From Rhizophagus irregularis (lineage: Eukaryota > Glomeromycota > Glomeromycetes > Glomerales > Glomeraceae): a DNA stretch of 64,000 nt. The notes below the pieces were generated by a model. That model searched no databases, had not been told where the DNA came from, and saw only the letters and a program-made list of their open reading frames with translations. The stretch is taken from positions 3,968,001 through 4,032,000 of the forward strand of contig NC_089436.1 of the NCBI RefSeq assembly GCF_026210795.1, written 5' to 3'. Within the stretch, counting starts at the first letter, position 1; the number at the start of each line of letters is the position of its first letter. The translations under genes were made by a program, and so were the position numbers. Positions 18,998-32,822 of the stretch are shown here, piece after piece.

Positions 18998-19011
18998 CCC
19001 TATGAAAAAAG
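18998..19011 (+). repeat. Left terminal inverted repeat of the 13.8-kb element
   Basis: CCCTATGAAAAAAG, identical to the inverted right end and to both ends of the 1.3-kb derivative over at least 13 bases. The following 270 bases contain subterminal motifs such as TTTTTGTGCAATATTTG, GATCTTTGTACAATTG and GATTATTGTACAATATTTG. Confidence 0.9.
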
Positions 19012-19508
19012 ATCATCCAATTTTTGTGCAATATTTGTTCAAGTCCGTGCGGAAATCATACAATTATTGCAGTTTTTTGGATAAAAATGGCCATGTCGAT
19101 TTTATAGTGTATTGAAAATGTGCGATCTTTGTACAATTGAAAATAAACTTAAATTAAGTATACAGAAAACGTTCAACTTTTGTGCAATAAAAGTTTAGGA
19201 TATAAAAATTGTGCGATTATTGTACAATATTTGAAAATATACGAAATATACGTTTATTTTAGTACAATCGTTACAATTGTACGATGGGAGATCATTTTAC
19301 TTTAATTGTGAATTGTGAATGTATTTAAAAAGTAATATATATGACTGTTTACCTACAATGTATTTATTTTAAATTAACTTATAATTTATAATAATATTAG
19401 CGATCAAGTTATTTTATTATAACAGAACCGCGTTTCTATAATATACATTTAATATCATTTAACCCATTTAACCGTAATTCAACCATATTATAATCGTGTA
19501 TCAAGTTT

Positions 19509-19670
19509 TTATATTATAGTAAAACCGAAAATATCTGCAAACATCACAATAATCGCTTCATCACGATCACCTTTTCCGTCTCTATAATTACTTTTTCGAT
19601 CACTTCCTTTACTACAATTACTTCCTCCTCCACCACAATAACCGCCGCCACCACCATATACACATACCAT
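19509..19670 (-). CDS. Small glycine-rich ORF (53 aa) inside the transposon
   Basis: The frame reads MVCVYGGGGGYCGGGGSNCS then a charged stretch (SDRKSNYRDGKGDRDE). Nothing supports expression. It lies between the left subterminal repeats and the zinc-knuckle gene. Most of 19270-20520 otherwise shows only AT-rich sequence. It may be chance coding in a GC-richer patch. Confidence 0.15.
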   Translation of the reverse strand: MVCVYGGGGGYCGGGGSNCSKGSDRKSNYRDGKGDRDEAIIVMFADIFGFTII

Positions 19671-20525
19671 CTGCAACTACCATCACGCTCGCGTTATTTC
19701 CTTATCCACCTTCGTCACATTCTAAATTTACTTAATTTTTTTACCTTTCCTTAATAATCTTTTATAATAAATATACTGTATTAATATAATTAATTAAATA
19801 AAAAAATTTAATTAAATAAAAAAATTTTTTATGCAATATGAAACTTATTTTATTGATTTTATTGATTTTATTATATACTGTATTACTAAGCAAGTTTTAT
19901 TATAAAAAAAATTCTTAAATAAAATAATAAATAGAAAAATACTTAGAAATTCATTATTATTCCAATTTTTAATAAAAGATCTAGAAAATTAAACTTCGTC
20001 GTTGATATAAACTTCGTATAAACTTATCATACATAACTTGGTGCTGTTTTAATATCGCTGAATGATACATGATACCTATACCTTGTATACCTTAGTAATA
20101 TCTCATTATTTTCGTTTCCTTTAGCTGTTATTTTATTCTATAAAGTTTACCAGTTTATAAAGTAACGCGCCTTTCGGATTGCTGTTACCTCTCATGTACA
20201 TACTATTTACTAACTAATAGAAACAAGTTTTACATCAAGTATCGTCGTTATTCATGTTTAGATCTAAAACGATTAGAGATTCTTAGTATTAACGCATTTA
20301 ATTATTGGTATTAACGAATATTAACGCATTTTATTATCACTACTATTCCTACCGATCATTATATAAATGTAATGTAAATTTTTTCATGTTTACTTTTTTT
20401 ACGAATTGCGAATTAATAATATTAATAAATAAAAAATATTAAAAATAAATAAAAAATATTAAAAATAATATATATGAAAATAAATATATAATTTTATAAA
20501 AAAATTTTTTTTTATTATATTGGTT

Positions 20526-20739
20526 CGACCCCAATCGAACGTTTTTTAAAAAAAATTAATCCGACTCGGACAAAAAAAAATAGTAATCAAAAATTAATTC
20601 GACCCCAATCGATCGGACAAAAAAAAAATAGTAATCGAACATTTTTTAAAAGATTAATATCCGACCCCAATCGGAAAAAGAAAAATATTCGACCCCAATC
20701 GAATATTTTAATTAATCTTTTATTATCCGACCCCAATCG
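20526..20739. repeat. Five exact copies of CGACCCCAATCG near the 3' end of the zinc-knuckle gene
   Basis: Copies start at 20526, 20600, 20662, 20690 and 20728, spaced 28-74 bases apart, each continued by short flanking bases that make small palindromes (TCGACCCCAATCGA, CCGACCCCAATCGG). Spacers are A/T homopolymers. The pattern of one fixed GC-rich 12-mer in AT-rich linkers resembles a protein-binding array or a processing signal. Confidence 0.85.
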
Positions 20740-20835
20740 GAAAAATGTTCGAGAACATAACATGATTCAGAAAATAATTTTTAATCTAACTTAAAAAATT
20801 AAAAAGATTAGAAAAAAGTTAAAAAATTAAAAAAT

Positions 20836-22206
20836 TTAGAGCCAAGGCTCTCTTATTTTAACATTATTACAACTCATAACCATATGATCGTCCGCCCAGC
20901 AATTAACGCAACGGCCTTTGTACTCTTTCGGTATTTGAGTACAAGCGAAGATGTAATGATTATCATTACAATAATAGCAAACAGCTCCTATTTTTATTAA
21001 TTTAAAAATTTTATTATTAAATAATTTATAAAATTTACTTTTACATTAAATTAATAAATTTTATTACCCGTTGATTCAAAACATTCGCGCTGTCGGCGCT
21101 GCATACGCTGCTGGCGTTGCTGCTGCCATTGCTGTTGCTGCTGCTGCTGTTGCTGCTGTTGCTGTTGCTGTTGCTGCTGTTGCTGCTGTTGCTGTTGCTG
21201 TTGCTGCTGCTGCTGTTGCTGTTGCTGCTGTTGCTGTTGCTGTTGCTGCTGTTGCTGCTGCTGCTGCTGTAAAGGCCAGTATGATGGAATTGATGACTGG
21301 TGATATGTTGTTGTTGTTGCTGCTGCTATTGTTGTTGTTGCAATAGCTGCTGTTGTTGCGGTTGATGCAGCAGTAGTTGTTAATGCGGTTGGTATTGGTG
21401 GTGTTGTTGATGCGGTTGTTGATGCGGTTGTTAATGCGGTTGTTGATGTAGTTGTTAATGCGGTTGGTATTGGTGGTGTTGTTGATGCGGTTGTTGATGC
21501 GGTTGTTGATGTGGTTGTTGATGTGGTTGGTAGTGTTGGTGCAGCTAGTATTAGTGCACTTGTTGTTGTTGGTGCGGTTGGTGTTGGTGTTGTTGTTGCT
21601 GCTGTGGTCGTTGCTGCTATTGTTGCTGCTCTTGCCGCAGCTATAATAATATAATAGAAGTTGTTTTAAAGTTAAATATATATATATATAAAAAACAAAT
21701 TTTATTAATTTTATTACCAATTCCGAACGAGGATACTCCGAACGAAGGTACTCCGAACGAGGGTACTCCGAACGAGGGTGCTCCAAACGAAGGCGAAGGT
21801 ACTCCGAACGAGGGTGCTCCAAACGAAGGCACTCCGAACGAGGGTGCTCCAAACGAAGGTACTCCGAACGAACTAAACGTAGAAGTTCTCCCACTTCCAA
21901 ATACTGGTGGTCTGTTTATTACAAGTCGTCAAAAAAACAAAAAATGTATTTTAAGATTATAAGATTATAATTAAAGATTTTTCTTTTATTTATTTATTTA
22001 TTTATCTATTTTTTTACTTTATTTATTTCTTTTATTAATTATTTTACTTACTGCAAGTTATTAATAAGCGCGTTAAGCGTCATTTTATGAATAGAGTTAG
22101 TTCCTTCTTTAAACTCCTGCATTGTTGTTTGATGAGCAAATAGAATATTATTATTATTATTATTATTATTATTATTATTATTATTATTATAATTATTGGT
22201 ATTCAT
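20836..22206 (-). CDS. Transposon-borne protein with poly-Asn, SFG repeats, poly-Gln and two CCHC zinc knuckles, 357 aa
   Basis: The exons are 22206-22052, 21911-21718, 21640-21068 and 20987-20836, with GT-AG introns in phases 2, 1 and 1, summing to an exact 358-codon frame. The N-terminus is MNTNNY plus an Asn run (an ATT microsatellite), then ILFAHQTTMQEFKEG. Exon 2 encodes about ten SFGVP/SFGAP repeats. Exon 3 encodes a Thr/Ala/Pro-rich stretch and then about 45 Gln. Exon 4 has CYYCNDNHYIFAC (C-x2-C-x3-H-x4-C) and CVNCWADDHMVMSC (the canonical C-x2-C-x4-H-x4-C). Zinc knuckles bind single-stranded nucleic acid or partner proteins; the low-complexity parts suggest condensate-type behaviour (inference). 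It is a likely accessory factor of the element. The start is the only ATG giving a continuous spliced frame. Confidence 0.75.
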
Positions 22207-31238: not shown

Positions 31239-31509
31239 CATACATAATATGCATATATATTTTAAATAAAGTAAATTTTTGTGTTGTCGTATTGCTTTTG
31301 TAATGAAATTTTGTAACTAATACAAAATTAAAGTTTAAAAGTTCATTTTTCGTTAGTTAAAATTTTGTGTCACTACTTATCCGGTTAGTTTGGAAAATAA
31401 AAGAAATTGTCCAATTAAAATTATGTATATAATACACGTGATCTGATCGTCCAATTAAAATTAAATTATATTATACCACGTGATCTGATCATCAAAATAA
31501 ATAATAAAT

Positions 31510-32180
31510 ATAACGCAGAAAATATTTGTTTATTTTTTTATTTCTTCAAACTTTTTTTCTTTTTTCTTCAAACTTTTCTTTTCGTTTATTTATTTTTTAA
31601 CTTTTTTACATTACTAACTTACTTTTTTCACTACGCAGAATTTATTTTTTAACTTTTTTACATTACTAACTTACTTTTTTCACTACGCAGAAAATATTTG
31701 TTTATTTTTTTTAACCTTTTTTTTCTTCAAACTTTTTTTCTTCAAACTTTCTTTTCTTCAAACTTTCTTTTCTTCAAACTTTTTTTCTTCAAACTTTCTT
31801 TTCGGTAAGAAAATTTATTTTTTTATCCTTTTATTTATTTTCTAACTTTTTTACATTTCAATTACTAACTTGCTTTTTTCACTAACTTTATACTTTTTTT
31901 TATTATTACTAACGCTAACAAACGCTAACAATTACTTTCCATACTACTTACTAATTTGCTTTCTTTATTAACTTCATACTTTTTTATTTTTAATATTAAT
32001 AATTTACTTACAATAATTTATTTTACTTTCTTTTTTTTATTATTACTAACGCTAACAAATGCTAACAATTTACTTTCCATACTACTTACTAATTCTAATT
32101 TTGCTTTCTTTACTAACTTCATACTTTTTTATTTTTAATATTAATAATTTACTTATACCAATAATTTACTTTACTTTCTT
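31510..32180. repeat. Nested tandem repeats in the right arm of the 13.8-kb element
   Basis: A unit with TTACATTACTAACTTACTTTTTTCACTACGCAGAA occurs twice (about 31590-31690), TTCTTCAAACTTT recurs many times (31545-31800), and a block of about 150 bases with ACTAACGCTAACAAA and CTTTCCATACTACTTACTAA occurs twice (31900-32050 and 32045-32180). The 1.3-kb derivative has the complementary sequences expanded differently, as a 65-base unit three times. No gene is seen in 31239-32822. Confidence 0.7.
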
Positions 32181-32436
32181 TAATATTTGATTTTATTTTC
32201 TTTATACATTTATAGTTTTAATTTATAGTTTATATCTAATACAGCGATAGTATATTATTTATGAATTATTATATATATATATTTATATTTTTTTATAGTT
32301 TTCTACATTTATAATTCATATCAAATATAGTGTTTTATTTTGTATATTAAATTAATAAAAATCCATAATTTCACTTTATAAATTTGCTTGTCGTTAATCG
32401 TTACTGACCAAATTTTAACTTACTGTAATCATAATT

Positions 32437-32640
32437 CCTAAAATTCGGCCCACAATAATTCCTAAATTCGGCTTACAATAATTCCTAAATTTGCCATAAT
32501 AATTCTTAATAATTCGGCCCACAATAATTCCTAAATTCGGCCATAATAATTCCTAATAATTCCTAAAATTCGGCTCACAATAATTTCTAAATTCGGCCCA
32601 GAATAATTCCTAAAATTCGGCCCAAAATTTGGCTCAAAAA
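32437..32640. repeat. Subterminal array built on AATTCGGCCCACAATAATTCCTAA
   Basis: About nine imperfect units of 18-24 bases (CCTAAA(A)TTCGGC followed by CCACAATAATT) lie 180-390 bp inside the right end. The 1.3-kb derivative has only about two degenerate units at the matching place, so the array expanded in one lineage or contracted in the other. Subterminal repeat arrays are a hallmark of CACTA-type elements. Confidence 0.75.
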
Positions 32641-32808
32641 TTAGACAATAATTATATAAAATCAGGTCATAAATTGGATGATTATTGTATGATTGCCATA
32701 CAACTATTGTGTGATTTATTGCAATTTTTAGCACAATTATTGTATGGTCAAATATACAGAAATCATAGTGAATTTAATTGGATGTTTTTTCAACAAAAAT
32801 CACACAGG

Positions 32809-32822
32809 CTTTTTTCATAGGG
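32809..32822 (-). repeat. Right terminal inverted repeat of the 13.8-kb element
   Basis: CTTTTTTCATAGGG, the inverse of the left end, followed directly by the CAA duplication. Inside it lies GTGTGATTTTTGTTG (inverted), shared with the left end of the 1.3-kb copy. Confidence 0.9.

Follow-up and report, generated by a model that had tools for sequence, protein, structure and literature searches.

A 64,000-nucleotide stretch of the genome of the fungus Rhizophagus irregularis (NC_089436.1, positions 3,968,001 to 4,032,000), here called the window, contains a 13,825-bp mobile element with four predicted genes. The element very probably belongs to the CMC supergroup (CACTA, Mirage, Chapaev) of cut-and-paste DNA transposons, a placement that rests on Pfam model scores and motif positions. 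Its ends begin with CCCTAT, and next to a tnp2-type transposase gene it carries three further genes, referred to as KNUCKLE, MYB, and BASIC. All four gene models are predictions from sequence, with introns that are all of the GT-AG type and 67-140 bp long. In window coordinates, the features of the element are as follows.

18998..32822, no strand: whole element, 13,825 bp, with the target duplication CAA at 18995-18997 and 32823-32825
18998..19011, plus strand: left terminal inverted repeat CCCTATGAAAAAAG, exact match
19012..19297, no strand: left subterminal arm in which ACAATAATTG-like motifs recur (count made in the C18 copy, 99.8% identical)
20836..22206, minus strand: KNUCKLE gene, 4 exons (22206-22052, 21911-21718, 21640-21068, 20987-20836), 357 residues, in 12/12 copies
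23391..24221, plus strand: MYB gene, 3 exons (23391-23588, 23669-23768, 23854-24221), 221 residues, in 12/12 copies
24813..28341, minus strand: tnp2-type CMC transposase gene, 8 exons (28341-27971, 27881-27616, 27545-26835, 26751-26422, 26353-25879, 25808-25379, 25293-25177, 25109-24813), 998 codons with an in-frame stop at codon 241, in 12/12 copies
29928..31184, plus strand: BASIC gene, 7 exons (29928-30008, 30079-30192, 30274-30366, 30440-30524, 30602-30738, 30819-31065, 31147-31184), 264 residues, lysine-rich with 56 lysines and arginines, in 12/12 copies
32408..32617, no strand: array of approximately 23-bp repeats of the AATTCCTAAATTCGGCCCACAAT type near the right end (repeat family D5)
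32523..32808, no strand: right subterminal arm with ACAATAATTG-like motifs as in the left arm, counted on the C18 copy
32809..32822, minus strand: right terminal inverted repeat CCCTATGAAAAAAG, exact match

Uninterrupted agreement between the two ends extends over 14 bp only. The boundaries and the 3-bp duplication are fixed independently by a paralogous empty site. When the flanks of the element are joined, they match C8:2127169-2127379 at 89-90%; no gap interrupts the junction, and the target triplet (one mismatch) is present once. Within the arms, ACAATAATTG with at most one mismatch occurs five times in each of the two terminal 300-bp segments of the C18 copy. Only 0.39 occurrences are expected from the density in the interior, and none of 40 shuffles reaches 10, the shuffle maximum being 8. 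A preliminary description of this DNA had proposed identical 14-base inverted ends, a CAA duplication, subterminal repeats, and a transposase with three further spliced genes. All of these were recovered, the genes as four frames that can be spliced at GT-AG sites. It had also called the element complete, which holds for the structure and not for the coding capacity, given the TGA at codon 241 of the transposase.

An open frame at 18268-18840 lies close to the left end of the element. Together with the paralogous stretch at C8:2127169, it suggests that the insertion occurred in or beside a duplicated host segment.

The element belongs to a family. The genome searched comprises 146.7 Mb in 32 contigs, which give the locus labels (C1, C2, and so on). 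The 14-mer end occurs 100 times, compared with 4 times for a reversed-pattern control. In twelve cases, exact ends stand next to each other in convergent orientation with less than 45 kb between them, at 13.8-17.3 kb in seven pairs and 27-42 kb in five. Every pair has identical flanking triplets (CAA, CAT, CAT, ATG, AAA, CGA, TAT, AAT, TTG, ATG, TTG, ATA), the first three bases are always CCC, and the ends are CCCTATGAAAAAAG throughout. The pairing with 3-bp duplications expected by the preliminary description thus holds across the genome, in 12 of 12 pairs, of which seven are below 20 kb. Nested insertions appear to account at least partly for the long pairs; in the one followed, the C1 pair, another tnp2 transposase lies inside at C1:1543282.

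Matches to all four genes lie inside all 12 pairs, although several are broken, such as those to MYB in C11 and C13 and to KNUCKLE in C24, which has a stop. Likewise, all 12 close transposase matches among the matches listed (97-100% over a 208-residue piece) fall within the end pairs. The sole high-identity accessory match outside them is a partial BASIC copy beside a solo right end at C20:3121808. The accessory genes are therefore not found as single-copy host genes, and a host-gene origin, which was considered, is unsupported by the genomic placement of their matches. The 76 other exact ends include the C20 solo end and a short element in the window. Searches with the end sequences, in which 40 candidates were scored for each end, give a consistent picture: 12 left ends and 13 right ones reach 93-100% identity, and 29 left ends are at approximately 80% and 28 right ends at 90-92%.

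Two other full copies, in C3 (13,917 bp) and C18 (13,898 bp), show 30 and 31 mismatches respectively to the window copy across the aligned bases (99.78% identity), and their splice sites are kept. Codon 241 of the transposase is a sense codon in both. The C18 copy has four open frames (998, 368, 221, and 264 residues), and in C3 the KNUCKLE and BASIC frames are shifted. The identity of about 99.8% between copies, together with the intact duplications, implies that the family moved recently.

In the transposase, Pfam Transposase_21 matches residues 360-499 (3.1e-23, 82.5 bits against a cut-off of 28.6), and matches to DUF1258 and DUF4218 stay below their cut-offs. D386, D475, and E760, placed by motif, are the candidate catalytic triad. 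Between D475 and E760 lie C494/C497, a C(2)C motif, and H736/H740, an H(3-4)H motif. The CMC supergroup is defined by these two motifs between the second D and the last E (PMC12730594); residue roles were assigned partly from that paper. To the extent that each was inspected, the relatives L045, L047, L049, and L051 share the same motifs. Target duplications in CMC elements are 2-4 bp long. The element thus combines a tnp2-type DDE transposase, both motifs, and 3-bp duplications, as the supergroup requires. Fungal EnSpm ends are defined as 5'-CAC..GTG-3' (PMC12730594), and this was tested; all 12 pairs have CCCTATGAAAAAAG instead. For this reason the element is filed under CMC and not under strict CACTA/EnSpm, in keeping with the preliminary description of a CMC transposon with non-CACTA ends.

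Membership in Plavaka, which was considered, is unsupported. The Plavaka transposase model PF18759 is absent from the matches of the window transposase up to E 1; it matches 123 places in the genome, none of them at the 12 copies. The ends are CCCTAT rather than TGT..ACA or CATCA..TGATG. A sequence search of the PDB with a shortened piece of the transposase gave 0 matches. At C24:3430328, a tnp2-type match lies in an uninterrupted frame of 985 residues, and the transposase there is apparently intronless.

The three accessory proteins had been described as low-complexity. Such tracts exist, but the proteins have conserved cores as well. The KNUCKLE protein consists of poly-N, 11 phenylalanine-glycine (FG) dipeptides in SFGVPSFGAP-type repeats, a T-rich and a poly-Q section, and a predicted C-terminal double zinc knuckle (CX2CX3HX4C and CX2CX4HX4C). 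The MYB protein starts with a Myb/SANT-like region, followed by poly-Q/D and an acidic tail. A PDB sequence search with its N-terminus gave 0 matches. The lysine-rich BASIC protein matched no Pfam family, and its gene stands head-to-head with the transposase gene, both in the window element and in related families. As the preliminary description had it, these three genes form a set, and the set is constant across the 12 copies.

Codon-level comparisons of the window copy with the C1 copy and with an older C2 copy, in which a Fisher test was used for an excess of synonymous changes, show that MYB and KNUCKLE are under purifying selection, as judged from coding sequence. Against C2, the ratio of nonsynonymous to synonymous change (dN/dS) is 0.12 for MYB (Fisher p 0.0008), 0.29 for KNUCKLE (p 0.002), and 0.35 for the transposase (367/999 codons, p 0.048). 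Against C1, it is 0.09 for MYB (dS 0.51, dN 0.047, p 9e-18), 0.44 for KNUCKLE, and 0.49 for BASIC, the last resting on three changes.

The C1 copy (C1:1552585-1562584, L010) is a mosaic. It is 98-100% identical to the window copy over most of its length, whereas identity falls to 76-97% in a block at approximately 21.75-24.25 kb in window coordinates, which covers the 5' part of KNUCKLE, the spacer, and MYB. Lesser dips at 21.0, 21.5, and 28.0 kb overlap low-complexity tracts. The simplest reading of the block is an exchange between subfamilies. The identity of MYB is also lower in the C11, C13, and C16:349620 copies.

The family also has short, internally deleted relatives resembling miniature inverted-repeat transposable elements (MITEs). 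One of them lies in the window, 1.2 kb upstream of the large copy and in opposite orientation.

16432..17774, minus strand: internally deleted (MITE-like) relative with the duplication CTG; identity to the large element 91% in the right-end arm and 85% in the left-end arm

Twelve further loci of this type were fetched. Right-end homology is present at 11 of them, and a partner end with an identical triplet lies 1.35-1.43 kb away at 10. With the window relative included, all 11 short pairs found have 3-bp duplications. At C14:1442253-1442729 (in part L044), two right ends of short relatives stand head to head, approximately 90 bp apart.

Relatives of the accessory genes occur near other transposases as well. 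Four of six distant BASIC relatives lie within 6 kb of a distant tnp2 gene, all at 2,217-2,220 bp (expected 0.08-0.14). Within 10 kb of such a gene are 12 of 62 distant MYB relatives, most at 2.6-3.5 kb (expected 1.4), and 6 of 22 distant KNUCKLE relatives (expected 0.5). These counts hold among the matches listed: of 371 and 393 first-look candidates, 150 were scored in each case, and the 12 close copies were left out. The expectations assume uniform, independent positions, though some relatives are near-identical copies, and the exons are short. In the same set, distant MYB and distant KNUCKLE relatives never come within 15 kb of each other. Taken together, these positions are suggestive of modules that each recur with tnp2, while the full set is confined, among the matches listed, to the family with CCCTATGAAAAAAG ends.

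An example of a related element with fewer modules is found on contig C25.

C25:2879774-2885414 (L045 2275-7915): two-gene element, 5,641 bp, with 31-nt imperfect CCCTAT ends and the duplication GAA

It contains a transposase, 59% identical to that of the window family over the 208-residue piece, and a BASIC relative head-to-head with it. No KNUCKLE or MYB match lies inside. With up to three mismatches allowed, its 31-nt end has 11 matches in the genome and the control has 0; two of the 11 lie beside the other 59% transposases. The element is inserted in what appears by eye to be the reverse-transcriptase/RNase H frame of a long interspersed nuclear element (LINE). Among the other relatives, L046 (transposase 25-30% identical) has no convincing inverted ends, and for L047+L048 and L049/L050 no ends lie within the stretch fetched. 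The C22 element (L051/L052) is possibly a third CCCTAT family, with a right-end-like CCCTATAAATAAG. It was not counted as one, as the two triplets next to it do not match (TTA, CTG) and its best left candidate starts with CGCTAT. A duplication flanking CCCTAT ends is thus established in two of the six families inspected.

Three other explanations have to be weighed. That the structure is a product of chance or assembly, with unrelated repeats flanked by similar 14-mers, has next to no probability and is already refuted. The ends are indeed short, and AT-rich sequence yields spurious repeats and many low-complexity families, but neither the excess of end matches over the control nor the matching triplets of every pair would then be expected, nor would the two near-identical full copies and the empty site. 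A more serious candidate, whose chance falls only a little short of even, is an otherwise ordinary CACTA/EnSpm element in which CAC ends have changed to CCC by drift. Pfam gives Transposase_21 as the best match and DUF4218 as a weak one, the 3-bp duplications and subterminal repeats resemble those of CACTA, and end sequences vary among related fungal CMC families (PMC12730594, PMC12810828). However, CCC is present in all 12 pairs, and CCCTAT also ends the C25 family, so that it is an inherited feature rather than the drift of one copy.

It is also conceivable, though unlikely, that the element carries the three extra genes as passengers, or as genes captured from the host, and that they have no role in transposition. 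Pfam assigns no function to KNUCKLE or BASIC, and the C25 element, with its transposase and BASIC relative only, implies that MYB and KNUCKLE are not needed in every CCCTAT family. Passengers would nevertheless not be expected in 12 of 12 copies, nor with the synonymous excess seen in MYB and KNUCKLE, nor with distant relatives of each near other tnp2 transposases above expectation among the matches listed.

Several results weigh against a CMC family with working accessory proteins and mobile short relatives. No Pfam zinc-knuckle model reached significance on the window KNUCKLE protein. The best Pfam match of MYB, Myb_DNA-bind_4, spans nearly the whole domain and stays under the cut-off of 27 (E 0.0031, 18.3 bits). 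An AlphaFold model of MYB exon 1 from a single sequence had a mean predicted local distance difference test score (pLDDT) of 49 and was not used for a fold search. Selection on BASIC against C2 is not significant (dN/dS 0.31, Fisher p 0.083), which also suits the passenger explanation, and the transposase has a dN/dS of 0.74 against C1. Of the 12 MITE-type loci, L014 and L027 have no partner end, and L027 has no similarity to the element.

On the reading as a CMC transposon with accessory proteins, movement would start with the tnp2-type DDE transposase, which would bind the ends, excise the element, and join it to a target with a 3-bp stagger. In En/Spm, the protein TnpA binds subterminal repeats and brings the ends together. 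Similarly, the MYB protein, the KNUCKLE protein, or both may act at the subterminal repeats, binding them and assembling the ends. BASIC, with its gene head-to-head with that of the transposase, could be a co-expressed cofactor. The short deleted relatives would be mobilised in trans, and present movement of the window copy itself would need protein from another copy, since its transposase gene is stopped.

A wider proposal is tentative and somewhat doubtful. It holds that the CMC transposons of R. irregularis take their accessory proteins from a common pool of three exchangeable modules and that recombination swaps these, the C1 copy being an example. The CCCTAT family would combine all three, and the FG/poly-Q/knuckle protein could be a transposon-encoded nuclear-assembly or condensate factor.

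Compared with known systems, the family resembles CACTA/EnSpm in its tnp2-type transposase, 3-bp duplications, short inverted ends, subterminal repeats, and a further candidate DNA-binding protein. Plant CACTA/EnSpm elements end in CACTA, and En/Spm encodes TnpD/Tnp2 and TnpA. The window family differs in that its ends are CCCTAT and not CAC, in having three extra genes and not one, and in that its candidate DNA-binding proteins are Myb/SANT-like and zinc-knuckle/FG proteins rather than TnpA. CNIRT6 and CNEST of Cryptococcus neoformans are likewise fungal CMC elements with a DDE transposase, but CNIRT6 ends in CACTG, CNEST has 2-bp TA duplications, and the text available mentions a transposase gene and no four-gene set for either (PMC12810828). 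Plavaka shares the CMC-type motifs and is present in the R. irregularis genome, while its ends are reported as TGT or CATCA (PMC12730594). Since fungal CMC families with CAC, CACTG, TGT, and CATCA ends are known (PMC12730594, PMC12810828), differing ends alone define no branch; the distinct glomeromycotan branch that the preliminary description had raised as a possibility is unsupported by the one genome analysed.

Annotations of CMC/EnSpm elements in R. irregularis (PMC11075540, PMC8647823) concern the same superfamily; the text available gives no end sequence, gene content, or name that could be matched. Because complete CMC-EnSpm consensus sequences were curated for this species (PMC8647823), a repeat library may already contain the CCCTAT family. 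No description of its end sequence or four-gene set was found in the literature searched, which was available in part, covered few subscription journals, and included neither Repbase nor the R. irregularis repeat libraries. The transposase type, the duplications, and the subterminal repeats are standard; what is new in this variant are its CCCTAT ends, an accessory set of three genes that stays constant, and the apparent modularity of that set.

Elsewhere in the window, at 5255-7462, 14846-16096, 43608-45896, and 57631-59732, there are long frames of Sel1-type repeats, some behind kinase-like sequence (all named by eye).

CMC elements are a major group of DNA transposons in arbuscular mycorrhizal fungi (PMC8647823, PMC11075540), and those of fungi have reportedly received little study for the most part (PMC12810828). 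With exact boundaries, a constant gene set, copies with open frames, and deleted relatives, the CCCTAT family provides a system for studying the roles of accessory proteins in CMC transposition and whether transposons exchange these proteins. Repeat annotation gains an end sequence and a duplication length. Finally, Myb- and knuckle-bearing genes of R. irregularis can be transposon genes and not host gene families.

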